Source of the DNA: a virus | Length of the DNA stretch: 20,300 nucleotides | Reading direction: 5' to 3' (one strand) | IMG/VR virus record: IMGVR_UViG_3300036831_000071 | Coordinates: 1 to 20,300 of that record | Part shown: in pieces, positions 1 to 17,005 of the stretch | Numbering within the stretch: the first letter of the stretch is position 1 | Layout of the letters: every line of letters starts with the position of its first letter | Program-made: the position numbers and the translations under genes | The notes under the pieces: model-generated | The model's database searches: none | What the model was told of the DNA's origin: nothing | Seen by the model: the letters and a program-made list of their open reading frames with translations, nothing else

Positions 1-725
1 AGCTTGTCGGAAGGGGACCAGGTGCGGGGCGACGGCAGCACCGGGTACGGGGGGAGCTGGGCGCCGCCGGACGGCGAGCCGCCCGTTCCCAGGGCCGCCG
101 GCGCCGCGGCGGTGAACGACAGCATGATCATCGCCCACGGGGCCGACGTGACCGTCGCGGACACCCCGGCACTGCCGGCGCGCGTCACCCATCCGTAGGC
201 GACCGCGGTGGCCTGCTGGCCGCCCGGGGCGAGGATGCCGAGGACGGGCAGCGCCGCGGGGAACGACGGGGTCCCGCCCGCGGCCGCGTTCTGCACGCAG
301 GCGATGATGACCTCGTTGCCGCCCGCCGCGGTGCCGGCCGCCGCCGGGGACGCCGAGGACCCGTTCGCGGCGACGGCGATGTCCGCGGCGGCGCACCCGG
401 TGACCGCCACCGCGAGGATGTTCTTGTTCTGGCCGTTGGCCGCCGCGAACGTGACCGTCAGGGAATCCCCGGCGGCCGGGTTCAGCCCGGTGACGGCGGT
501 CGCGGTGAACGCCTGCAGGTACTCATTCGATGTCGATGATGCGGCGAGGGCGTACGTGTTGCCCTGGGTGTCGGTGACCGCGGTCGCCGCGGTCGCCCCC
601 GATGCCCCGGCGAAAACGGCGATGACCGCCCCGGGGGGGACCGGGGCCGTCGTCATCGGCACCTGGTACGACGACGCCGATGCGGTGGTCGAGATGAAGC
701 CGGCGAACACGGGGGTGCCGATCAC
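1..725 (-). CDS. Minor tail protein, N-terminal part (runs off left edge)
   Basis: The frame opens at a GTG (725-723) and stays open to the left edge, giving at least 241 residues. The visible part is an Ala/Gly/Thr/Val-rich beta domain with a GNTYAL motif (after about residue 50) and a closing WAMIMLSF strand (about residue 205), then a Pro/Gly/Ser linker entering an unseen second part. The start is supported by GAGG five bases upstream of GTG, in a 12-base context (GAGGCGGCCGTG) identical to that at the start of the preceding tail gene at 4161. The domain resembles the N-terminal 260 residues of that gene, which suggests duplication. The position after the hub gene fits a host-contact or decoration role at the tail tip, but the function is inferred from context only. 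The upstream gene reads 200 nt into this one in another frame. Confidence 0.75.
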   Translation of the reverse strand, partial: MIGTPVFAGFISTTASASSYQVPMTTAPVPPGAVIAVFAGASGATAATAVTDTQGNTYALAASSTSNEYLQAFTATAVTGLNPAAGDSLTVTFAAANGQNKNILAVAVTGCAAADIAVAANGSSASPAAAGTAAGGNEVIIACVQNAAAGGTPSFPAALPVLGILAPGGQQATAVAYGWVTRAGSAGVSATVTSAPWAMIMLSFTAAAPAALGTGGSPSGGAQLPPYPVLPSPRTWSPSDK

Positions 726-8800: not shown

Positions 8801-9454
8801 GACCATCCCGAGCATCTTGGGAGCGGACGCGCCCATCGACGCCATGTTGGACGCGACGTGGTACAGCGACTCCGCCAGTGACTGCGGGCCCTCGCCGGTC
8901 GTGGTCGCGAGCTGCAGGACCCCCTGCGACAGCCCGGCGAGCTTCGACTGCGCGACCCCGGCCTGGGTGTGGAGCTGCTCGATCGACGACTGGAACTTCG
9001 CGGCCTTGTCGATCCCGTACACCGCGGCTAGCCCGACCCCGAGCAGGGCCGTCTTCATCACGCCGCCGAACGCCGATGCCTTCCCCGACGCGCCCTCGGC
9101 GCGGTCCCCCGCTACCGTCGCCGACTCCCCGGCCCGGTCGTAGGCGGCGGCGAGCTCGTCGGCGGCTGCCGTGCTGGCATCCAGCGCCCCGGCGGTCCGG
9201 TCCAGCGCCGCGACCGTCTCATCGAGCGCGCCCATCAGGGCGCCGGCCCGCCCGGCGGCGGCGTTCTCCGCCTCGGCGAGCCGGTCCGCGGCCCCGCCCG
9301 TGGCGTCCGCCACCCCGGACAGGCGCTCCGCCGCCGCCGCGGCGGCATCAAGGGACGCGGCGAGCTTGTCGGTCCGCTCCAGCATTGCGTCGATCCCCGC
9401 GAGGAAGTTCGCGGCCTGGATGCTGAACTCCTGGATGACGGGGGGCAGGGACAA
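5891..9454 (-). CDS. Tape measure protein
   Basis: 1187 aa, the longest reliable gene apart from the hub. An N-terminal Ala-rich coiled region (20-125) precedes a TP901/PhageMin_Tail-type core (about 130-400). Two hydrophobic segments follow (about 471-492 and 504-523), then Trp-rich amphipathic helices (530-740) and the hallmark FSPSKVFYALGGNITTGLALG (743-763). Three related segments of about 60 residues lie at 757-957. The C-terminus is short and polar. Tape measure proteins set tail length at roughly 0.15 nm per residue, which predicts a tail near 180 nm. The start is TTG at 9454; no ATG or GTG occurs in frame just upstream. A G-rich site is present but lies within a small GGGGG-CGAT-CCCCC hairpin. 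The gene follows the chaperone region, as is usual, but with one extra gene between. Confidence 0.95.
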   Translation of the reverse strand: MSLPPVIQEFSIQAANFLAGIDAMLERTDKLAASLDAAAAAAERLSGVADATGGAADRLAEAENAAAGRAGALMGALDETVAALDRTAGALDASTAAADELAAAYDRAGESATVAGDRAEGASGKASAFGGVMKTALLGVGLAAVYGIDKAAKFQSSIEQLHTQAGVAQSKLAGLSQGVLQLATTTGEGPQSLAESLYHVASNMASMGASAPKMLGMVKIAAEGAQVGGASLVDVTNALTAAVASGIPGVNNFQQAMGMLNATVGSGDMHMQDLADAFSTGLLAVVKGYGITLKDTGAALAVFGDNNIRGAKAGTDFRMAVQALAVPAAAGAAQLKALGLNSKSLASDMQSGGLMKALDDLTGRFKKNGITAKDQGEVITTLFGKKAGSGIAVLLGQMDRLKSKYPDIQKGADKFAGAWQDRQKTMAQQWDQLKSGAQALAISFGTVLLPPATKIVGALAKFGAFLEKHPAVAAFAGAILAVAAAFKIVAAAEAIFDAVTDANPVMLVLVAVIALAAGLYELYKHSKLVRDIVADVGKFFKSAWNDAMKGADAVIKWFTGGPLAFIKQQLAVFSKFWDQHGAQIKQIAKAAWAFIRDVITTAWKMVWDGTIRPGLVILEALWKVAWGLIRDTVRLVWRMIAVDVSTAIKIVLDIIGVVLDLITGKWGKAWNDLKKLASDALHGAISIITTMTSGFGTLLWDAGKAIVQGLINGVKSMLGAVGKVAGDIGHGVVGAFKAVTGIFSPSKVFYALGGNITTGLALGITETAAQAYAAARALAAKVTAAFGAGQITGSEESSLLARISTGLSARNLSLAKIAASIDAAKLGADITARIGAGITETMPQARAAARKLMAAIAREVARGQISTAQAAQLTLKIQEDLTSRQDKLVKTMQAIGLKMAAGLLTSLEGATSASTAKTAVNKLISYVQQAWAAGDISTSKASSMTKWLESDSTRLQGLAARRQALLATIKAADAYAATTTSNTESWAGLSNVASSTTSGGMTYSGNLLAGMQANLTAIRQFGAAIKKLAHLGLRKDLLNQIIQMGPAQGLQVANALIDGPAKVIAEMDATQAAIVSGSTSLGQAAANAMYDTGKQAGKGFLSGLQAQEHQVTAMMDRAAKSMVKTMRRELGMGGGGTGPGAAMQVHVAVNGFVGNNAELTEEIRKVLQQEVLRYNRRNGKNGLSLSL

Positions 9455-9479
9455 GGGGGATCGCCCCCGTCGCGAGTGC

Positions 9480-9971
9480 CTAGAAGTCCATGACCGCCCG
9501 CCACGCGTCGGTGGTGACCCGCGTGGCCATCCCGGTGCTCTCCAGCCTCCTGGCCGCTGTGGCCATCGCCGGGCGGCGGGGAATCGTCACGCTCCGGCCG
9601 AAGAACCCGACGTCGGGGTTGCCGAGCTGCGGGAAGTTCCTCGCCGTGATGGTCACCGGCCCGAACTCGTGCACCGCCGCGTAGATGAGCTTGGACCCGA
9701 CGAGGCACCGGAACGCCGCTGTGCCGTCCTGCATGACCGGCGTCCGGGCGTAGGACCGGCGGAGCATCCCCGTGATGAGCGAGGGGGGCTGGCCGGGCTT
9801 GGACGGGGTGCGGGTGCCCTTGGGGTGCGTGCTCGAGGTGAGCGTGACCTTGACCGCGGTCTCGGCTGTCCGCCCGAGCGCCTCGCACGCCGCACGGGGC
9901 GCTTCGGCCGCCGCTTTCTCGCGGATGGCCCGGAGCCTGTCCGCTACCTCGCGGGCCGCGTTGCCGCTCAC
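9480..9971 (-). CDS. HK97 gp10-like head-tail joining / tail completion protein
   Basis: 163 aa from GTG 9971, which overlaps the stop of the GT frameshift product (GTGA). An N-terminal helix rich in Ala/Arg/Glu is followed by a basic Ser/Thr/Pro segment, then YAAVHEFGP (about residues 96-104) and a TIPRRPAMATAARR tail (about 128-141). This pattern, a 'Y..VEFG' strand and a later 'PRPF..pA' helix, is typical of the HK97 gp10-like family, which helps join or complete tails. In most siphoviruses this gene precedes the major tail protein; here it sits between the chaperone and the tape measure. The family call is from motif recognition and the exact role is inferred. Confidence 0.7.
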   Translation of the reverse strand: MSGNAAREVADRLRAIREKAAAEAPRAACEALGRTAETAVKVTLTSSTHPKGTRTPSKPGQPPSLITGMLRRSYARTPVMQDGTAAFRCLVGSKLIYAAVHEFGPVTITARNFPQLGNPDVGFFGRSVTIPRRPAMATAARRLESTGMATRVTTDAWRAVMDF

Positions 9972-10596
9972 CGGCCCCCCTTGCTCCGCCGCTCCGCCCG
10001 CTCGCCCTCGACGCGGCGGCGGATGTTCATCAGGTCGAAGCAGTACCGGCGCACGTAGGAGGGGGCCGCCTGGAAGTCGTCCCAGGACCAGTGCATTTCC
10101 CGCATCAGCTCGTAGTCGGCGACCTCGGCGGGCACTTCGCTGCCGCCCCAGGTGCCGTCGTAGATGGACTCGGCGGGGGCTAGGACGTCTTCCCAGTAGG
10201 CTCCGCCGGGCTCTGCGGAGGGTTTATGACCCCCGTCACCTGCTCCATCAGGTCCATGAGGATGGCCTGCGGAAGCTTCGCCACGGTCTCGGCGGTTGCC
10301 GGGAGCTGCAGGAGCCGCGGCGCTGTCTCCTCGTCGTGGATCAGCTCGCCGGTTTCGAGGTCGGCCTTGACGGGGACCGTGGGGTCCCAGACGCGCCAGC
10401 CGATGATGAGGTTGGCGATCAGCCCGCAGACGCCCTTGATCCTTTCCTCGCCGCTTTCCGTGTCGCCGCGGGAGGCCAGGGCGGTGAATTCGGTGCCGGG
10501 CATCGTCTGCGGGTTACGGATGATGACGTGGCAGGTGTCGCCGTCCTCGACCAGCTCGTCGAACCTGCGGGTGATGACCGGGTTGCGGTAGCCCAT
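9968..10596 (-). CDS. Tail assembly chaperone, -1 frameshift product (gpGT type)
   Basis: This is the long form made when ribosomes slip back one base at A-AAC-CCT (10225-10219). It has 126 residues of the short chaperone followed by 83 residues in the -1 frame, ending at the TGA at 9970-9968, for 209 aa in total. The extension contains the expected T-type sequence: a Tyr/Trp/Asp-rich patch (AYWEDV), then YELMREMHWSWDDFQAAP, and a basic end (RRRVEGERAERRSKGG). In lambda the GT form bridges the tape measure and the tail tube protein during assembly. The extension has no good start of its own, and its stop overlaps the next GTG start, which supports expression by frameshifting. Confidence 0.85.
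10180..10596 (-). CDS. Tail assembly chaperone, short form (gpG type)
   Basis: 138 aa from ATG 10596, with AAAAGGA six bases upstream and only 15 nt after the major tail protein stop. The protein is a soluble alpha/beta chaperone type: FDELVEDGDTCHVIIRNPQ near the N-terminus, a central GVCGLIANLIIGWRVWDP, and a C-terminal helix (AILMDLMEQVTGVINPP) before the slip site. Position between the major tail protein and the tape measure, with an overlapping -1 extension, is the standard siphovirus arrangement. Most ribosomes should end here at TAG 10182-10180, giving an excess of G over GT. Confidence 0.85.
   Translation of the reverse strand: MGYRNPVITRRFDELVEDGDTCHVIIRNPQTMPGTEFTALASRGDTESGEERIKGVCGLIANLIIGWRVWDPTVPVKADLETGELIHDEETAPRLLQLPATAETVAKLPQAILMDLMEQVTGVINPPQSPAEPTGKTS
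10219..10225 (-). other. Programmed -1 ribosomal frameshift site A-AAC-CCT
   Basis: The minus strand reads AAACCCT in the phase A AAC CCT, a perfect X XXY YYZ heptamer. Both tRNAs (Asn, then Pro) can re-pair after slipping to AAA CCC. It is an A-run in a very GC-rich gene, 13 codons before the zero-frame stop, and it links the G frame to an open T-like frame. A G-run (GGGGGT) a few codons earlier is a weaker alternative site. Confidence 0.8.
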
Positions 10597-10611
10597 TTCG
10601 TCCTTTTCGTA

Positions 10612-11763
10612 TCAGTACGCGGCGGTGAGGAAGTTGGACAGGCTGACGGACACGATGCCGCTGTCGGTTGCGTTCGCGATGCCGGTCAGCGCCTGGTTGA
10701 GCTGCACGTACTGGCTTGCGAGGTCGACCTCGCCGGTGGTGTAGCCGGACTGCGACATGGTGATCGCCAGCACCGACCCGCCGGAGGTGACCGGCTGGGT
10801 GAGGGTGTGCACTGTCGGGAGCTGGCTGTACTGCTTGAAGAGGCTGATGTCGAGGTCGTTCTCGAAGATCGCCTTGTAGGTGCCGTCGGCCTCCATGGCG
10901 CCGGGAAAGATCTCCCGGGGCCCCTGGGTGCCGTCGGAGGAGTCGATGACCTCCACGGCCCGCTTCAGCGTCAGGTCGAACGTCAGCCCGCGGGTGGAGG
11001 CCGCGCCGCCGTTGGTGACGGTCCACGCCCAGCCGACGATCGGCTGCACCGCCGACGCCGCGTACGCGAACGTCGACTGGGTGGCGGACGGGAACCCGGA
11101 GTACTTCGGGGAGCAGGTGATGAACCCCTTCGGGTCGATCTTGATCGCCAGGTCGGACATGACGCAGCCGGGCCAGCCGAGCTGGTCGGTCCCGTCGTCG
11201 ACCGTGAACGAGTAGGTCGGCCACACCGTGCTGAAGGTGCGGTTCGCCTTGAACACGTGCGTGGACTGGGACAGCACCGCCCCGCCCGCCGCGGTGTGCG
11301 CGTACTTCGTGCCCGTCGCCGGGACGACGACGGTCGCCGCGGTCCCCACCGTGGTCACCTTCACCCACTCAAGGTTCGCGCCGGCGGAATCGGAGATCTG
11401 GATGACGCTGTTCGTCGGCACGGTCACGGTCAGGGTCAGTGACGTCGCCCCGGCCGCGCAGTTCGACGCCAGGGTCGTCGACACGCCCGCCGCCACCGTG
11501 TCCGGGCCGATCATGGCCCGCATGAAGTGGCCGATCAGGTCCGCGTACGCGTTCGACTCGATATCCCACGTGCAGTAGGCGGGCCCCTGGTTCAGGCCCT
11601 GGACCACGCTGTCGTTCGCCCGCACCGACTCATCCCGCAGCGGGGCGATGACGTCGATGAACTTCGCGGTCGTGAACGGGACGGAGATGGCCGGGGCGGT
11701 GTAGGTGTACTGGGTGCCCTCCTTGGCCAGCCCGAGCTTGGCGAGGCGTGACAGGTAGGTCAT
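10612..11763 (-). CDS. Major tail (tube) protein with inserted beta domain
   Basis: 383 aa starting at ATG 11763, overlapping the previous stop by ATGA. The N-terminus (MTYLSRLAKLGLAKEG, then YTAPAISVPFTTAKF) and the body (SFTVDDGTDQLGWPGC about 185-200, SDLAIKIDPKGFITCSPKYSG about 202-222, and a C-terminal ANATDSGIVSVSLSNF) fit actinophage tail tube subunits, which stack as hexamers to form the tail. Residues about 92-166 interrupt the tube domain with an autonomous-looking Thr/Val-rich beta module that resembles residues 929-997 of the hub-like protein. The insertion probably projects from the tail surface. The gene directly precedes the chaperone pair, which supports the call. Confidence 0.88.
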   Translation of the reverse strand: MTYLSRLAKLGLAKEGTQYTYTAPAISVPFTTAKFIDVIAPLRDESVRANDSVVQGLNQGPAYCTWDIESNAYADLIGHFMRAMIGPDTVAAGVSTTLASNCAAGATSLTLTVTVPTNSVIQISDSAGANLEWVKVTTVGTAATVVVPATGTKYAHTAAGGAVLSQSTHVFKANRTFSTVWPTYSFTVDDGTDQLGWPGCVMSDLAIKIDPKGFITCSPKYSGFPSATQSTFAYAASAVQPIVGWAWTVTNGGAASTRGLTFDLTLKRAVEVIDSSDGTQGPREIFPGAMEADGTYKAIFENDLDISLFKQYSQLPTVHTLTQPVTSGGSVLAITMSQSGYTTGEVDLASQYVQLNQALTGIANATDSGIVSVSLSNFLTAAY

Positions 11764-11993
11764 TCGCCGGCCTCCTTGTCGTGTCCGGCGGCCTTGCCGC
11801 GCTTGCCCGCAGGCTTGTCGTCAGGGGCTTCCGCCGGCGCTGTGCCGCTCTCCGGGCCGTCCAGGCGGGTGCAGCCGGGGATCACCCCGTGGACCTCCGG
11901 GTCGTAGCCTTCGGCCTCGAACTCGCCGGGCGGGATGACCCCGAACGCCTGCGATCGCAGGACGCTGCCGGTGTCGTTCCTGAACTTGGCCAT
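11760..11993 (-). CDS. Small structural-operon protein, 77 aa, unknown role
   Basis: The chosen start is ATG 11993, because GGGAGG lies seven bases upstream; a longer reading from 12131 would overlap the divergent gene. The protein has a short folded-looking N-terminus (MAKFRNDTGSVLR, then GVIPPGEFEAEGYDP) and a low-complexity Pro/Glu/Lys tail. It is translationally coupled to the major tail protein (ATGA). The build, a short N-terminal domain with an RxD.G opening and a charged disordered tail, resembles the 117-aa protein after the capsid gene. I do not recognise a family; a decoration or assembly role is only a guess. Confidence 0.75.
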   Translation of the reverse strand: MAKFRNDTGSVLRSQAFGVIPPGEFEAEGYDPEVHGVIPGCTRLDGPESGTAPAEAPDDKPAGKRGKAAGHDKEAGE

Positions 11994-12029
11994 GCGGCTG
12001 CCTCCCGGTGGCGGGCTAAGGTTGGGGGG

Positions 12030-12389
12030 GTGAGCGAGGTGGCCGGCCGCGAGTTCGGCGAGGTGCTGGTGGCCTTCGTCGATGACCCGCCGAACGGGCC
12101 GAGACTGCGCATCGCCGCAGCGGACGAGCACGTGCTGATCACGGTTCCGCTGCTCGCCCTGGCCGACGCGGGCGAGTCGCCGTGGGCTTCGCTTCGAGAG
12201 GCTGGCGAGCCCGGCGACGGCGACCCGTTCGGCTACCGGGGAGCGGTGCTCAGGCTTGAGATAGGCGAACGGTCAGTCGCCTACCGGGTCGGCGAGTACG
12301 TGCCCGGGCAGCGCGGCTATGTCGCGGAGCGCGAGCGGTGCGGGCAGGAGCTTGAGTGCCAGCGCGCCATCGGGCAGGAGCAGGGCTAG
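12030..12389 (+). CDS. Hypothetical protein, 119 aa (reverse-oriented island A)
   Basis: Starts at GTG 12030 with AAGG eight bases upstream and ends at TAG 12387-12389. It is opposite in direction to all structural genes around it. The product is acidic and shows alternating strands: EFGEVLVAFVDDPP, RLRIAAADEHVLITVPLLAL, AVLRLEIGERSVAYRVGEYV, then GQRGYVAERERCGQE. No signal peptide or membrane segment is visible and I do not recognise the family. Its start is 36 nt from the divergent 77-aa gene and its stop shares CTAG with the convergent tail-terminator-like gene. It is a candidate accessory gene; the precise fit between neighbours argues that it is real. Confidence 0.65.
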   Translation: MSEVAGREFGEVLVAFVDDPPNGPRLRIAAADEHVLITVPLLALADAGESPWASLREAGEPGDGDPFGYRGAVLRLEIGERSVAYRVGEYVPGQRGYVAERERCGQELECQRAIGQEQG

Positions 12390-12892
12390 CCGTTGACCTC
12401 GTCGTCATCCGCGTAGTAGGTAACCGAGGCGCGCAGTTCCTTGTCCGCCGGCACGGTCTGCATCGGGTGCTCGAACGAGACGTGCACGCCCGGCGACCTC
12501 GGTACTTCCCCGGCGGACAGGAACGCCCCGCCGTGCGTCTTGTCGCCTACCGGCCCGCGTATCCGCTGCACGAGGAGGTCGACGGCGTTCTTCAGGTTCT
12601 GCTGCTCGGTTTCCAGCAGCGGCGACGTGGTGACCCGGACCGGCCAGTGCAGGTCAAGGGTGATCTGGTAGTGCGGCATGATCCGCTGGCTTGAGGTCCG
12701 CTCGTCGTCGATCTCCAGTGACGACACGTAAAGCTGCGTCTGCTGGGTGCCGGGGGTACGGGTCCAGAACGCCTGGATGACGTCGAACGGGCCGCCGTCC
12801 TGCGTCAGCAGCCACGGGAGCGAATCTCCCGTGGTCGTGAGCCAGGCCGCCTCGCGGACTTCCACCGTGCTCAGACCGGTATAGGTAGGCAC
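12386..12892 (-). CDS. Tail terminator / tail completion-like protein
   Basis: The preferred start is GTG 12892 (168 aa), because longer readings run through the divergent DUF6221 gene and become Ser/Ala-rich nonsense. Notable segments are DGGPFDVIQAFW, the strand QLYVSSLEID, the pair HYQITLDLHWPV and LLETEQQNLKNAVDLLVQRI, and a C-terminal ELRASVTYYADD. A strand-helix-strand protein of about 150 residues in the slot before the major tail protein fits a tail terminator, which caps the tube and joins it to the head. The ribosome site is weak (GAGGA eleven bases upstream). The assignment rests mostly on position and size. Confidence 0.6.
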   Translation of the reverse strand: MPTYTGLSTVEVREAAWLTTTGDSLPWLLTQDGGPFDVIQAFWTRTPGTQQTQLYVSSLEIDDERTSSQRIMPHYQITLDLHWPVRVTTSPLLETEQQNLKNAVDLLVQRIRGPVGDKTHGGAFLSAGEVPRSPGVHVSFEHPMQTVPADKELRASVTYYADDDEVNG

Positions 12893-12926
12893 TCGGTCAC
12901 CGGTCCTCGCGTGGGATGCTGGCGCA

Positions 12927-13376
12927 GTGAGCGACGAGATGACGGCTTGGCTCCGCGCGCAGGTCGAGGCAGACAAGGCGGCGGGCCAGGCGCTGATTGG
13001 CGATGGCTGCACGGGCACATGGGAGATCGATCACTACCGCGCGGTTCGCGATTCAGGCTCGCCGGTAAGGCTGTTCGATGGGGTCATCCACGACCGCGCC
13101 GCATGGCGAACCGTTGATGTCGCCAGAGCGCGGCATGCAGACGCCCAGGCTCGCCACATCGCCATCCATGACCCGCGTGACGTGATCGCCGACTGCGACG
13201 CGAAGCTGGCTGCGCTCGACCTGTGCGAGCGCGTGATCCGGGAGGATGCCGAGGATCACGACGACTGCGGCGCGGCAAGCTCGTGGACCGGGCTCGCGGT
13301 CGCGCGGCTCGCCGTGAGCCTGCTCGCCTCCGGCTACCGGCACCGTGACGGCTGGCAGAAGAGCTGGGCGGCGTGA
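12927..13376 (+). CDS. DUF6221-like accessory protein
   Basis: 149 aa from GTG 12927. The opening DEMTAWLRAQVEADKAAGQ, the central ARHADAQARHIAIHDPRDVI, the following ADCDAKLAALDLCERVI, and a closing LLASGYRHRDGWQKSW match the layout I recall for DUF6221, a small all-helical family common in actinobacteria and their phages, whose function is unknown. It opens a plus-strand run of small genes, and its stop overlaps the next start (GTGA). The start is 34 nt from the divergent tail-terminator-like gene. There is no strong Shine-Dalgarno; GGGATG lies about 8 nt upstream. It is probably accessory cargo rather than a virion part. Confidence 0.75.
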   Translation: MSDEMTAWLRAQVEADKAAGQALIGDGCTGTWEIDHYRAVRDSGSPVRLFDGVIHDRAAWRTVDVARARHADAQARHIAIHDPRDVIADCDAKLAALDLCERVIREDAEDHDDCGAASSWTGLAVARLAVSLLASGYRHRDGWQKSWAA

Positions 13377-13630
13377 CGGTCACTCAGGCCGACGCGCAGG
13401 CGTGGCTTGAACGGCAGGCCGACCACTACTGCGCGGAAGGCGGCACGTTCACGTCCGACCTGCCGCTCGGCGTCACCGGGCTTGGTGTCCGCCTTGAACT
13501 GTCGGGAGACTTCAGCCTGCGCGCGAGCCTCTGCGAGAAGTTCAAGCCGGGACCACTGACGTTCTATGCCGTCTGGCTCGGCATCGAGCTGACCACGACA
13601 CGGCAATGGAGCCCGAGGTCTGCGCGGTGA
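13373..13630 (+). CDS. Hypothetical protein, 85 aa (island B, second gene)
   Basis: GTG 13373 overlaps the DUF6221 stop by GTGA, implying translational coupling. The sequence has an N-terminal helix (ADAQAWLERQADHYCAEGG), then strands (TGLGVRLELSGDFSLRASL, and LTFYAVWLGIEL). It is soluble and mixed alpha/beta, with no recognised family. Codon use in this island is less strictly G/C-ending than in the structural genes. It is considered real because it belongs to a chain of short overlapping genes. Confidence 0.6.
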   Translation: MTVTQADAQAWLERQADHYCAEGGTFTSDLPLGVTGLGVRLELSGDFSLRASLCEKFKPGPLTFYAVWLGIELTTTRQWSPRSAR

Positions 13631-13914
13631 CGACGCCGTACGTCCACACGCTCGGCGCGACGCGAAGCCCGGCGCTCACTGTCCGGAGGCTGCTTCCGTC
13701 ATGGGAGCCGCCGTGGCCGCCGATGAGGGGGCCGGTACCTGCTGGCCGGCCGTGCGCGACATGCACGCACGGGCAGCCGCCGCGTGTCCTGCCCATTGAC
13801 TGGCCGCTGCCGCCGTTCGAATTCGCGGAGCCGACGGGAGAGCGGTGGCCGTACCGGCTTGAGTGCTACGGTGCGTGGCCGTTCCCGAACTACCGGCTGT
13901 CCAGCGTCATCTAG
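13627..13914 (+). CDS. Hypothetical Pro-rich protein, 95 aa (island B, third gene)
   Basis: The start chosen is GTG 13627, which overlaps the previous TGA (GTGA) and has GAGG eight bases upstream; an ATG at 13606 is possible. The protein is rich in Pro, Trp and Arg, with a CATCTHG motif and a later LECYG, so a small metal site of three cysteines and a histidine is possible. Other segments are SWEPPWPP and IDWPLPPFEF. There is no known family and no membrane segment. Confidence 0.55.
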   Translation: MTTPYVHTLGATRSPALTVRRLLPSWEPPWPPMRGPVPAGRPCATCTHGQPPRVLPIDWPLPPFEFAEPTGERWPYRLECYGAWPFPNYRLSSVI

Positions 13915-13916
13915 CG

Positions 13917-14081
13917 ATGAGCGAAGACGGCTGGGAAGACTACGAATCGGTGCAGATGTTCGAGGGCTGCGACTGCAGCCACGACGCGACCGAGCACAAG
14001 GGCGCGTGGGGAGACTGGCGTGAGGGTGAGGGCTGCCTGGTGCCCGGCTGCCCGTGCGACGTCGAGTGGGAGGACGCATGA
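13917..14081 (+). CDS. Small Cys-rich putative zinc-binding protein, 54 aa
   Basis: ATG 13917 lies 2 nt after the previous stop, and the gene ends at TGA 14079-14081. Near the middle, GCDCSHDATEHKG is followed by GCLVPGCPCDVEW. The pattern C-x-C-x-H...H...C...C-x-C fits a compact zinc-binding fold often seen in tiny actinobacterial and actinophage proteins. The N-terminus is acidic (SEDGWEDYESV). There is no clear Shine-Dalgarno, so translation probably depends on re-initiation. The biochemical role is unknown. Confidence 0.6.
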   Translation: MSEDGWEDYESVQMFEGCDCSHDATEHKGAWGDWREGEGCLVPGCPCDVEWEDA

Positions 14082-14290
14082 AGCTGGAATGGAATCCGCT
14101 GGACATCAAGCCGGTGGGCGAGCTGACGCTCTACGGCGATGCGCGCCCGCTGGAAGAGATCCGCAAGGGTGACCTGGTGCTGGTCAACGGGTCGCCGTAC
14201 CGCGTGACGGACGGGTCGGATGACGGCGACTCGGTGACTTACAAGCTGGAGCCGACCTGGCTGGAAGACGACGGAAGGCCGAGCCCGTGA
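14078..14290 (+). CDS. Hypothetical protein, 70 aa, small beta-barrel-like
   Basis: ATG 14078 overlaps the previous stop (ATGA), with GGGAGG just upstream. The central part, IRKGDLVLVNGSPYRVTDG followed by SVTYKLEPTWL, reads as four or five short strands with a tight turn, in the manner of small SH3-like barrels. The N-terminus is MKLEWNPLDIKPVGELTLYG. The stop overlaps the next GTG. No family is recognised; the fold remark is inference. Confidence 0.6.
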   Translation: MKLEWNPLDIKPVGELTLYGDARPLEEIRKGDLVLVNGSPYRVTDGSDDGDSVTYKLEPTWLEDDGRPSP

Positions 14291-14574
14291 GCCCGAGACA
14301 TCCCGAGACGCTGGAGATCGAGAACCCGCTCGTCGTCTGCGGCCACTGCTGGTTCAGGGTGCCGCTGCGGGGTGAGTGGTCAGTGGAGGATGGCAGGCTC
14401 GTCTTCCGCGCCAACCCGGATCCTCAGCCGGGGCGCGGGCCGGATCTGGTCGGCTGCTGCGAGACTGACCTGATCGAGTTCGAGCGCATCACCGCCGACG
14501 GCAAGGAGCTGAGCCCCGAGCAGGTAGCGGCACTCCGGGAAACGGCCGCAAGCGCGCCAGCCGGGTGGGAGTGA
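14287..14574 (+). CDS. Hypothetical protein with CxxC and CC motifs, 95 aa
   Basis: GTG 14287 overlaps the previous TGA (GTGA), with GGAAGG nine bases upstream. The protein contains VVCGHCWFRVPL (about residues 16-27) and later VGCCETDLIEF (about 55-65), so four cysteines could bind zinc. The C-terminal helix is SPEQVAALRETAAS. It is the last of the overlapping plus-strand chain, and its stop lies 2 nt from the 3' end of the tRNA-like sequence on the other strand. No family is recognised. Confidence 0.6.
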   Translation: MSPRHPETLEIENPLVVCGHCWFRVPLRGEWSVEDGRLVFRANPDPQPGRGPDLVGCCETDLIEFERITADGKELSPEQVAALRETAASAPAGWE

Positions 14575-14576
14575 CC

Positions 14577-14648
14577 TGGCGGCGCCGCCAGGACTTGAAC
14601 CTGGGCCTCCGGGAGCTACCCGGCGCTCTTCTCCTGAGCTACGGCACC
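14577..14648 (-). tRNA. tRNA-like sequence with encoded CCA; nominal anticodon AGC
   Basis: The minus strand folds as a near-complete cloverleaf of 72 nt. The acceptor is GGTGCCG/CGGCGCC (one G-U pair), then TA, the D stem is GCTC/GAGC with a 7-nt loop, and the anticodon arm is four or five pairs around GTAGCTC. The T arm is CCAGG/CCTGG with loop TTCAAGT, followed by G and an encoded CCA. Keeping U33 gives anticodon AGC (Ala), which is unusual in bacteria, and position 26 seems missing, so it may be a degenerate tRNA or tRNA-like element. The encoded CCA and perfect T arm argue against chance. Confidence 0.55.
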
Positions 14649-14726
14649 GGCCCCGTAGGGACCACGACCACGTAACGGGAGCTGCCCGCCCGCCAGCCGA
14701 TAGCCCAAGCATAGGAGGATCACCCC

Positions 14727-14873
14727 ATGACCACCGAACCGGACGCCGACGCGAGCGACGGCAAGACCGAGGCGGAGCGGCTGAGGTCAGCCGAGATTAC
14801 GCTGGTGACGATCCGCGACCACGCCGAGGGCGTGCTGTCCGTGTCGCAAGAGGGCTCTCGTGCCGCCATCTAG
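14727..14873 (+). CDS. Small hypothetical protein, 48 aa (end of island B)
   Basis: ATG 14727 is preceded by AGGAGG nine bases upstream, the best ribosome site of the plus-strand genes. The gene ends at TAG 14871-14873, which shares CTAG with the stop of the convergent basic-protein gene. The peptide begins MTTEPDADASDGKTEAERLR and continues with a short helix (TLVTIRDHAEGVLSV). It is acidic and soluble. No family is recognised; support comes from the ribosome site and the exact fit against the neighbour. Confidence 0.6.
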   Translation: MTTEPDADASDGKTEAERLRSAEITLVTIRDHAEGVLSVSQEGSRAAI

Positions 14874-15232
14874 ATCCGCTTCGGCCTCGCCGCCCGGTAC
14901 TTCGCCGCCTTCTTCCGCTTGACGGCCCGCATCGCATGCCCGTGCTGCCCGGCCGCCTTGAACGCCTTCGCTTTCGCGTGCACCGGGAACGGGTTCCTGG
15001 TCCCGATCCCCTTGTACGCCGCAGGCTTCGGCGCTTTCCAGGGCTTCGCCGTCCGTGCCCGGAATCCCTTCAGCGCCTTCGGGGCGTGTGCCCGGAATAC
15101 TGCCCGGCTGCGCGCGTGATGGGCGCGGAACACCGACCCGCCGTGCTTGACCCCGCGCCTGCTGCGGAACCGCACTTTCCGGTTCCGCCTCGCCCGGCCC
15201 GGCTTGGTCCCGGTCAGCCTCACGGCGGCCAC
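14870..15232 (-). CDS. Very basic 120-aa protein with 11-residue repeats
   Basis: GTG 15232 lies one base after the connector stop, with GGAG five bases upstream. More than a third of residues are Lys, Arg or His and there are almost no acidic residues. Three consecutive 11-residue units are visible in the first half: VFRAHHARSRA, VFRAHAPKALK and GFRARTAKPWK. The rest is Lys/Ala/Pro-rich and ends RAARPKRI. Such a protein should bind nucleic acid or an acidic surface. It occupies the slot where a head-closure (neck) protein is expected, but its sequence looks unlike that family. Its function is unknown. Coupling to the connector and the convergent CTAG stop support it as a real gene. Confidence 0.65.
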   Translation of the reverse strand: MAAVRLTGTKPGRARRNRKVRFRSRRGVKHGGSVFRAHHARSRAVFRAHAPKALKGFRARTAKPWKAPKPAAYKGIGTRNPFPVHAKAKAFKAAGQHGHAMRAVKRKKAAKYRAARPKRI

Positions 15233-15233
15233 G

Positions 15234-15896
15234 TCAGCTCCGCATGTAGTTAGCCAGGGCCATCAGGGCGTCGGTGTGCAGCTCGTCCGGGTTATGATCC
15301 GACGCGGCCGGATTCAGGTCCCTCACCGCGAGGTACGCGGCCATGAATTTCCCCGCCCGCACCAGGTCGGCGGGGATCGCCACCGTGTACCCGCCCGAGT
15401 ACGTCACCCGGATCAGCGACCCGATCGGGATGAACTGGCCGAGCTGGAACCACACGTGACCCGAGTCGTTTTCCGCCCCCTGCCACTGGGACGTCGACAG
15501 GTTCTGGTTCCCGCCGTAGGAGCGGACGACCTGGATGCTGATGCTGCTGTAGGTCCACAGTTCCGGGTAGCGGACCGCGTACTCGTTCAGCCAGCAGTGC
15601 CTGACCAGGGTGGTGACGCCGAGGGCCTGGGCGTAGGAGCGGCCGAGGGTGCCCTGGATGTCCATGGGGATGTTCGCCGAGTCGGTGTACTCGTCGGGGT
15701 CCATGCCCTCGGCCCGGTGCGTTTCCGGCACCGACGTGAACGGGACGAGGCGGCGGCCGGTCTCCGACTCGCACTCCCGCGTCGCCTCCGACAGCAAGTC
15801 GGACAAGGCCTGGGTGCTGTAGCCCTTGACCAGGTCGCTGTACGGTCCCGCCGTGAACTGGGCGGCCGAGACGATGGGCACAGGGCTGTCCGCCAT
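15234..15896 (-). CDS. Head-tail connector (gp6-like adaptor) protein
   Basis: 220 aa from ATG 15896. The N-terminus (AAQFTAGPYSDLVKG) is followed by a helix-rich adaptor body: LSDLLSEATRECESETGRR (about 31-49), ALGVTTLVRHCWLNEYAV (about 91-108), and a C-terminal helix pair (IPADLVRAGKFMAAYLAV, then LHTDALMALANYMRS). The central beta region includes FIPIGSLIRVTYSGGYT. Adaptor proteins of this type form a dodecameric ring under the portal and start the neck. Gene order (capsid, small protein, connector) agrees. Its TGA is one base before the GTG of the basic protein. Confidence 0.8.
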   Translation of the reverse strand: MADSPVPIVSAAQFTAGPYSDLVKGYSTQALSDLLSEATRECESETGRRLVPFTSVPETHRAEGMDPDEYTDSANIPMDIQGTLGRSYAQALGVTTLVRHCWLNEYAVRYPELWTYSSISIQVVRSYGGNQNLSTSQWQGAENDSGHVWFQLGQFIPIGSLIRVTYSGGYTVAIPADLVRAGKFMAAYLAVRDLNPAASDHNPDELHTDALMALANYMRS

Positions 15897-16366: not shown

Positions 16367-17005
16367 CTAGGCCTGTGCGGCAGTAGCAGCGGCCTTCGCG
16401 GCGGCCCGCTTGGCCCGCATGTTCTCGCGGTTCCGTATGCGGATGCATATCCGGCACTGCCGCCCGCCGCCCGGCTGGACGTAAGTGTTCTCGGGCGTGT
16501 ACTCGTGGCCCTGCGGGCAGTGGGTCTTGGCCCGCTGGTGGCCGCCCTTGCCGGCCCCGGTGCGGTTCTTGTCGCCCTGCTCCTTGCGCCACCTGCGGAT
16601 GCAGGCGCGGCAGCCCCGGTCCCCGTTGGGATACCAGTAGGTGTTCTCCGTGTCGAACGGGTGCCCGTAGGCGCATTCTGTCGCGAGCGCGTTCCGTGCC
16701 CCCGGCCCCGTTCCCCGCAGGATGTTCACCCGGTCGGTTACGGGCTCAAGGTGGCGGGGATGCACGCACATCGTCACCCGGCACAGGTGATCAAGCGTGA
16801 GGCCATCGGGAATCGGCCCGATGAACAGCTCGAATGAGAAGCGGTGCGCCAGCCTCTTCTTGTCGTCATACCAGAAGTAGCCGTACCCGTTTTCTCCGGG
16901 GGCGCCCTGCCAGACCCAGCACGGACCGAGGTCCGGCGCGTACTCGGGGACCGGGCTGTTCGGCTCGATCTTGCTCCAGAAGCGCGCGATTGTACGCTGT
17001 TCCAT
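16367..17005 (-). CDS. Free-standing HNH endonuclease with two zinc ribbons
   Basis: 212 aa from ATG 17005 with GGAG about five bases upstream. The HNH core includes a first histidine in LAHRFSFEL (H54), the LDHLCRVTMC segment (D72, H73, C75, C80), and VHPRHLEPVTDRVN (H82, H85, N94). Two related zinc ribbons follow: C111, H115, C132, C135, and C163, H167, C184, C187, each of the form C..GH...ENTY...G...CR.CIR. The C-terminus is a Lys/Ala helix. Such genes are usually mobile homing endonucleases that cut an allele lacking them. It lies directly after the major capsid gene, in a segment with more A/T than its surroundings, bracketed by hairpins. No intron is implied, because both neighbours are intact. 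Confidence 0.88.
   Translation of the reverse strand: MEQRTIARFWSKIEPNSPVPEYAPDLGPCWVWQGAPGENGYGYFWYDDKKRLAHRFSFELFIGPIPDGLTLDHLCRVTMCVHPRHLEPVTDRVNILRGTGPGARNALATECAYGHPFDTENTYWYPNGDRGCRACIRRWRKEQGDKNRTGAGKGGHQRAKTHCPQGHEYTPENTYVQPGGGRQCRICIRIRNRENMRAKRAAAKAAATAAQA

Follow-up and report, generated by a model that had tools for sequence, protein, structure and literature searches.

Why should two runs of small genes lie on the plus strand inside the minus-strand virion operon of a virus? The window analyzed here, an entire virus record of 20.3 kb, holds two such islands, at 12030-12389 (island A) and 12927-14873 (island B), and an initial annotation took their common layout to suggest a preferred way of inserting accessory genes. 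We set the window beside relatives found with HT1, a putative head-tail connector, as query (32 viral loci from IMG/VR, together with L034 and L035, two loci in Streptosporangiaceae MAGs); related contigs reach ~104 kb. INPHARED, a collection of cultured phages, gave no match by DNA and none for the HC, MCP, iA or DUF6221 proteins. Of 14 related virus contigs searched for an integrase, nine have one. In G001 and G002 the nonstructural arm runs mostly leftward, which is the direction of the islands.

The islands and their virion neighbors

Slot A, the site of island A, is bordered by g77 (11760..11993, minus strand), a small virion-operon gene with orthologues in related loci. HC (12386..12892, minus), judged by its position to be a neck or head-tail gene, separates slot A from slot B; it has orthologues in most relatives and a dN/dS of 0.18 against L002. 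On the far side of slot B lies a basic, Lys/Arg-rich 120-aa gene (14870..15232, minus; 88% in L002, 73% in L046), followed by HT1 (15234..15896, minus), whose putative role is likewise assigned by position. The virion strand of the window also carries an HNH gene (16367-17005).

Island A is a single 119-aa gene of the iA family (12030..12389, plus). Its homologues are 42%–72% identical and occupy slot A in L002, L037, L046, and L036, and a place after MTP in L015; more distant ones sit among long series of small genes that share one strand. The protein has no Pfam or PHROG match, and a structure model (mean pLDDT 72) has no PDB match below E 0.2; the one BFVD match in the fold search (E 2.4e-4) is to an uncharacterised protein of Mycobacterium phage Sparky. 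The annotated frame has zero stops and a pN/pS of 0.58–0.65, the lowest or tied lowest of the frames, and the minus frame that ties with it at 0.58 contains eight stops. The plus-strand frames hold coding signal, and purifying selection on the island proteins is weak (pN/pS ~0.6).

Island B opens with a 149-aa gene (12927..13376, plus) that had been described as DUF6221-like, an assignment borne out by Pfam PF19730 (E 3e-17, 63.8 bits against a gathering cut-off of 27.6). A 46% identical DUF6221 gene stands at slot B of L046. Family members also fill different slots in L025 and L033, and nine related records have them in yet other places; a structure model (mean pLDDT 67) gave no fold match. 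Five small plus-strand genes follow: gene 2 (13373..13630, 85 aa, positive coding score, no Pfam or PHROG family), gene 3 (13627..13914, 95 aa, with a ~50% identical partial homologue at slot B of L002), the Cys-rich gene 4 (13917..14081, 54 aa, an ORF with a weak coding score and no family), gene 5 (14078..14290, 70 aa, 80% identical in slot B of L002), and the Cys-containing gene 6 (14287..14574, 95 aa, with a 47% match in L047 that sits in a run of small genes). The junctions among genes 1–6 are mostly GTGA or ATGA overlaps, as had been claimed: four of the five overlap by 4 nt (GTGA at 13373, 13627, and 14287; ATGA at 14078), and the remaining one (13914/13917) is a 2-nt gap. Gene 7 (14727..14873, plus, 48 aa) has its own Shine-Dalgarno, AGGAGG, and a coding score of 17.8. 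The tRNA-like sequence previously counted in this island is a real tRNA, tRNA-Ala with anticodon agc (14577..14648; ARAGORN; Rfam RF00005, 52.7 bits), but it lies on the minus, virion strand and is therefore no plus-strand island gene. L012 has a tRNA-Gln in the same slot and strand.

Both islands were said to end by sharing CTAG, which reads TAG on both strands, with a convergent gene, and the sequence agrees. The stops of island A and HC share 12386..12389, conserved at the L046 junction, and those of gene 7 and the basic protein gene share 14870..14873; since these ends overlap, there is no room for a terminator between the stops. Across the family, an overlap of exactly 4 nt is seen in 12 of 43 convergent pairs, and structural genes end in CTAG at 19 of 43 convergent junctions versus 53 of 304 ordinary ones, defined as non-overlapping and co-directional (Fisher p ~2e-4, relatedness ignored). 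CTAG ends are thus enriched, yet within a class of 4-nt convergent overlaps that is recognised as common in prokaryotes (PMC2174442).

Divergent spacers and -10 boxes

The divergent starts, placed 34–36 nt apart at both islands by the initial annotation, are indeed separated by 36 nt (11993/12030) and 34 nt (12892/12927), and the spacing recurs at orthologous junctions. At slot A it is 36, 35, 36, 36, 36, 35, and 35 nt in the window, L002, L037, L046, L036, L011, and L012; at slot B it is 34, 32, 33, 32, and 33 nt in the window, L002, L037, L046, and L016 (starts other than those of the gene caller were used for slot B of the window, L002, and L046, and for L012, L036, and L011). Each spacer contains the Shine-Dalgarno of the virion gene back-to-back with a -10 box 6–7 nt before the island start codon. 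The box of island A, TAAGGT (12017..12022, plus), stands 7 nt before a GTG start and is an exact TANNNT; TACGGT or TAAGGT is aligned at -12/-13 in the window, L002, L037, L046, L036, L014, and L012, and GGGGTACGGT also precedes the 46-aa gene of L011. The box of island B, GATGCT (12915..12920, plus), is 6 nt before a GTG start and matches TANNNT only at the A and the last T; the same position reads GATGCT in L002, GATACT in L046, CATCCT in L037, and CATGCT in L016. Upstream of the island A box, a small inverted repeat, CCCG-GTGG-CGGG (12004..12015), is common to L002, L037, and L046 and overlaps CCTCCC (12001-12006), which is complementary to the Shine-Dalgarno of g77; it may possibly be an operator.

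NANNNT occurs at -13/-12 from the island start in 11 of 11 tight divergent spacers, one of them using the start of the earlier annotation and one an alternative start, and at almost no other offset. The stricter TANNNT is found there in seven of 44 island-first genes, compared with none of 400 virion-strand genes and none of 2,305 alternative starts (Fisher 6e-8, relatedness ignored). Overall, 7–12 of the 44 first genes have a clear TANNNT box; other islands, with long upstream gaps, lack it or have misassigned starts. No -35 element is seen by eye, and the divergent Shine-Dalgarno occupies that region. TA-like signals ~12 nt before the start mark leaderless genes, which are common in Actinobacteria (PMC3160421), and promoters of M. 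tuberculosis are of the form TANNNT, with the -35 not conserved (PMC3898074).

The predicted slot A promoter, GG(C/G)TACGGT, precedes iA, a zinc-ribbon gene plus iA, iA plus zinc-ribbon, zinc-ribbon alone (L011), and also a 102-aa gene in L012 and a 96-aa gene in L014 that are unrelated. Promoter and 35–36-nt spacing are kept in seven phages with differing cargo; in L014, 198 nt separate the promoter from g77, which shows that the fixed spacing has exceptions. A search of all viral contigs with this pattern, which is strict and misses the TAAGGT form of the window as well as L002 and L011–L014, returned only three known slots and four matches without slot genes, and gave no sign of use outside the clade.

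Insertion, turnover, and competing explanations

Relatives without the islands have the flanking virion genes adjacent. Slot A is empty in L034, where HC and g77 are 8 nt apart. Slot B is closed in L010, L014, L021, and L028–L031, in which the basic or spacer gene and HC lie within ~17 nt or overlap; HT1 adjoins HC in L015, L023, and L025–L027. In many relatives other antisense genes occupy the same slots; antisense genes stand at slot B in ~9 and at slot A in ~11 of ~28 scorable loci, and a 27-taxon tree calls for at least three changes at slot B and at least five at slot A. The first genes at slot B are mosaics. These comparisons support the view that the islands are accessory insertions, and the empty slots and other cargo run counter to the same islands being fixed in the same place in all relatives. 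The closest relatives, L002, L037, and L046, come from different metagenomes and keep the two-island architecture, which implies that the slots are passed on by descent with changing cargo; L004, inside the clade, has no called antisense genes at either slot, indicating that the socket can be lost.

Could the plus-strand frames not be genes at all, or the assembly be chimeric? Most of the small frames belong to no Pfam or PHROG family and selection on them is weak, but the architecture shared across metagenomes, the DUF6221 match, in-frame pN/pS below 1 with zero stops, and homologues in other phages already contradict this idea, which we consider extremely improbable. It is unlikely, though far less so, that the islands are ordinary early genes displaced from the nonstructural arm, with a geometry owed to general genome compactness. 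The commonness of 4-nt convergent overlaps, the same-strand runs that hold distant iA homologues, and the direction of the G001 and G002 arms would all fit; recurrence at the same few junctions, with promoter and 35–36-nt spacing kept over different cargo, and the start-proximal promoter signature argue against it.

Free-standing homing nucleases might instead have brought the islands to intergenic sites, with the other genes as passengers. In L002, a pair of antisense genes resembling endonuclease VII stands between MTP and TAC; HNH, DUF559/Vsr-like, and endonuclease VII matches occur among the antisense genes of the family, the window has its virion-strand HNH gene, and nuclease-type insertions are described for Cluster J phages in the part of that report used here (PMC3706429). 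Against this, Pfam and PHROGs detect no nuclease domain in island A or B, none is seen in the island genes tested from L046, L037, L011, and L012, and for most antisense genes no nuclease family gives a match. As the origin of the islands this seems quite improbable; homing endonucleases, or plain module exchange, could nonetheless account for some of the turnover.

The likely reading, in our judgment, is that the islands are autonomous leaderless morons, antisense within the late virion operon of temperate, probably actinobacterial, tailed phages. A sigma-70-type, -10-only promoter would open each island, and transcription would begin at the first codon or 1 nt before it, giving a leaderless mRNA. 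The spacer would be held at ~32–36 nt because this promoter and the Shine-Dalgarno of the divergent virion gene stand back-to-back within it. Of the proposed preferred way of inserting genes, the conserved geometry stands; its spacing is best accounted for by a leaderless promoter set tightly beside a Shine-Dalgarno and not by an insertion device. The socket would be kept by descent in one clade, and its cargo, whether single genes or GTGA/ATGA-coupled small-gene operons, would turn over by recombination. Host RNA polymerase probably expresses the cargo early or in lysogeny, along the mostly leftward direction of the nonstructural arm, and the late transcript would then run antisense over it and damp its expression.

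The cargo is probably accessory, with host interaction, superinfection, and anti-defence as candidate roles. PADLOC, NCBIfam, Pfam, and PHROGs searches of 74 antisense proteins returned mainly DUF6221 and nucleases, with isolated weak matches. Among the island proteins of the window, Pfam and PHROGs matched no helix-turn-helix; an acr-aca locus would have an Aca repressor gene of that kind beside its small variable genes. One antisense protein elsewhere in the family matches a helix-turn-helix. That the slots are conserved antisense promoter sockets for exchangeable early anti-host or anti-defence genes, silenced by antisense late transcription, is a doubtful extension; if true, promoter position alone would predict new anti-defence genes. 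The rule itself, a -10 box 6–7 nt before the start and a fixed spacer against a virion Shine-Dalgarno, is testable and may serve as an accessory-gene finder in uncultured actinophages, in which protein searches offer no match to go by. The arrangement also illustrates how genes can be added to the most conserved phage operon with the translation signals of the neighbors undisturbed.

Comparison with known systems

In archaeal viruses, anti-defence genes have been found by a shared early promoter, and some were tested experimentally (PMC11065993). There too a conserved regulatory sequence precedes small, dissimilar genes, but the promoters are of the TATA/BRE type. Between their capsid and tail genes, Cluster J phages have variable insertions, among them genes for glycosyltransferases and methyltransferases, HNH genes, and a transposon; like the islands, these non-structural genes interrupt the capsid-tail region, and the part of the report considered makes no mention of antisense promoter sockets (PMC3706429).

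By description, the closest precedent appears to be the small leftward genes of the Cluster O mycobacteriophage Corndog, where the structural operon is broken by small reverse-strand genes at as many as four sites, and one of these genes follows PL2, a promoter predicted to be leaderless (PMC4351075). The portion of that account drawn on here reports neither a kept promoter with swapped cargo nor CTAG ends, and gives Corndog as lacking an integrase, unlike most of the related contigs searched here.

Morons, as summarised in the relevant part of PMC6316719, are extra genes or transcription units between genes that are adjacent elsewhere, with their own promoter and small proteins. The islands resemble them in lying between genes adjacent in related phages (L034 and the closed slot B loci) and in their small proteins; a promoter of their own is predicted from the -10 signature. 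Base composition does not mark them as foreign (72.5% G+C in island A and 68.8% in island B against ~67%–71% around them), a deviation that is frequent in morons but not obligatory. Unlike usual morons they are antisense to the late operon, their leaderless promoter would abut a neighbor's Shine-Dalgarno, and their convergent ends overlap. The moron is a known kind of add-on gene; here the spots and promoters are kept and the genes are swapped.

Antisense islands and their slots among relatives

The 20.3-kb window is the entire virus record. On its minus strand runs a virion operon whose genes, judging by order and size, encode capsid and head-tail proteins, a major tail protein, the tape measure and tail proteins; two plus-strand islands, A (12030-12389, the single 119-aa gene iA) and B (12927-14873), break it up. 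The coordinates of the initial annotation all proved correct on the sequence, including divergent spacers of 36 and 34 nt at islands A and B and the CTAG common to convergent stops at 12386-12389 and 14870-14873. Pfam bore out the DUF6221 gene of island B, whose internal junctions are, as described, mostly overlaps (four of five, each 4 nt). The tRNA reported there is a genuine gene by ARAGORN and Rfam, but sits on the virion strand rather than the plus strand. It is a tRNA-Ala (agc; 14577-14648, minus), and L012 has a tRNA-Gln (ctg; 2451-2524, plus) in the same slot; the two differ in identity, and both lie on the virion strand downstream of the basic protein gene. That gene (14870-15232, minus) encodes a Lys/Arg-rich product, and its counterpart in L004 (8669-9154) is of other length, with repeated KMSAASKAK segments. 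A 58-aa frame at 22-198 (plus), antisense to a tail gene and 93% conserved in the L002 contig, is probably just a shadow frame of the gene on the opposite strand.

Relatives gathered with the protein of HT1, the putative head-tail connector (15234-15896, minus), comprise 32 viral contigs together with two from Streptosporangiaceae MAG bins; cultured phages in INPHARED gave no match to the window DNA or to four proteins (HC, MCP, iA and DUF6221). By gene calling on these relatives, the order HT1, HC, g77, MTP, TAC is conserved, with slots in between. Slot B, between the basic gene and HC (12386-12892, minus), holds antisense genes in the window, L002, L011, L012, L013, L016, L033, L037 and L046, and is closed, or HT1 adjoins HC, in L010, L014, L015, L021, L023 and L025-L031. 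The HC-MTP interval (slot A) holds antisense genes in the window, L002, L010-L014, L025, L033, L037 and L046; in L034 the gap between HC and g77 (11760-11993, minus, in the window) is 8 nt. Mapped on a tree of 27 taxa built from HT1, HC and MTP, these patterns require at least three changes for slot B and at least five for slot A, counted before the small slot-A gene of L011 was recognised. Because empty, closed and filled slots vary among relatives, the islands behave as the insertions initially proposed, with closed slots where they are missing, and not as a fixture that all relatives carry at the same place. The HC-MTP slot can take virion-strand cargo as well: in L027 it contains five inserted sense-strand genes (9238-12178, 3 kb).

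A packed spacer with exchangeable cargo

Spacers are 36 (window), 35 (L002), 36 (L037), 36 (L046), 36 (L036), 35 (L011) and 35 nt (L012) at slot A, and 34 (window), 32 (L002), 33 (L037), 32 (L046) and 33 nt (L016) at slot B, computed from coordinates with starts set by hand rather than by the gene caller for window slot B, L012, L036, L011 and slot B of L002 and L046. In every spacer the Shine-Dalgarno of the virion gene, present as its complement, is abutted by a hexamer resembling a -10 box, which lies 6-7 nt ahead of the island's start codon. NANNNT at -13/-12 occurs in 11/11 tight divergent junctions and almost nowhere else, and TANNNT at 7/44 first island genes versus 0/400 virion-strand genes, statistics that ignore relatedness, several sites being orthologous. 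In Actinobacteria, TA signals ~12 nt upstream mark leaderless genes (PMC3160421), and a -10 element alone can define promoters (PMC3898074).

The predicted slot-A promoter sequence, GG(C/G)TACGGT (TAAGGT in the window), stands upstream of iA in five phages, and also before a 46-aa zinc-ribbon gene (L011) and unrelated genes (L012, L014). The zinc-ribbon-like module (CxxC...CxxC) occurs alone (L011, 4489-4629), fused before the iA domain (L036, 1417-1899) or after it (L037, 3992-4561). The spacing is not fixed everywhere, for in L014 this promoter and g77 lie 198 nt apart. A strict search of all viral contigs for the exact pattern, which misses the window's TAAGGT form, L002 and L011-L014, yielded three known slots and four hits without slot genes, with no sign that it is used outside the window's clade. 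Slot B begins with DUF6221 in the window and with different small genes in L002 and L046; the 181-aa first gene of L037 has only its first 26 residues in common with that of L046. DUF6221 genes occupy other slots in L025 and L033, and further places in related records.

The islands' CTAG ends had been read as part of a repeated insertion architecture. Exact 4-nt overlaps join 12/43 convergent pairs in the window's family, and structural genes end in CTAG at 19/43 convergent versus 53/304 non-overlapping co-directional junctions. Since convergent overlaps in prokaryotes jump in frequency at 4 nt (CTAG, TTAA and the like; PMC2174442), these ends reflect compact packing rather than a new mark of insertion.

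Coding signal, functions and known kinds

In island A and B5 (14078-14290, plus, 70 aa), changes are in excess at third positions and in-frame stops are absent. Their pN/pS is 0.56-0.65, and dN/dS for HC is 0.18; the island proteins evolve fast. Most have no family match, and structure predictions for iA and DUF6221 gave no function, so an anti-defence role is only a possibility. Antisense genes elsewhere in the family include some endonuclease VII or HNH genes. L002 carries an adjacent antisense pair of endonuclease VII-like genes (12478-13328, minus; 36% mutual identity) between MTP and TAC, a slot closed in the window. On the window's virion strand, an HNH endonuclease (16367-17005, minus; PHROG 826, E 2.8e-68) lies between the capsid and head-tail genes; it is absent from this position in most relatives, and L017, L033 and L046 have HNH relatives there. 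A tyrosine integrase was found in 9/14 related virus contigs searched, and in the two fully read contigs (G001, G002) the nonstructural arm runs mostly leftward, the direction of the islands.

Morons are known as a general kind (PMC6316719) and variable interruptions are described in PMC3706429. In Cluster O phages, the virion operon was found to contain small genes in reverse orientation, with a promoter predicted to be leaderless (PMC4351075). Added here are the conservation of the slots, the spacer in which predicted promoter and Shine-Dalgarno are packed together, and a predicted promoter that is kept while its cargo changes.
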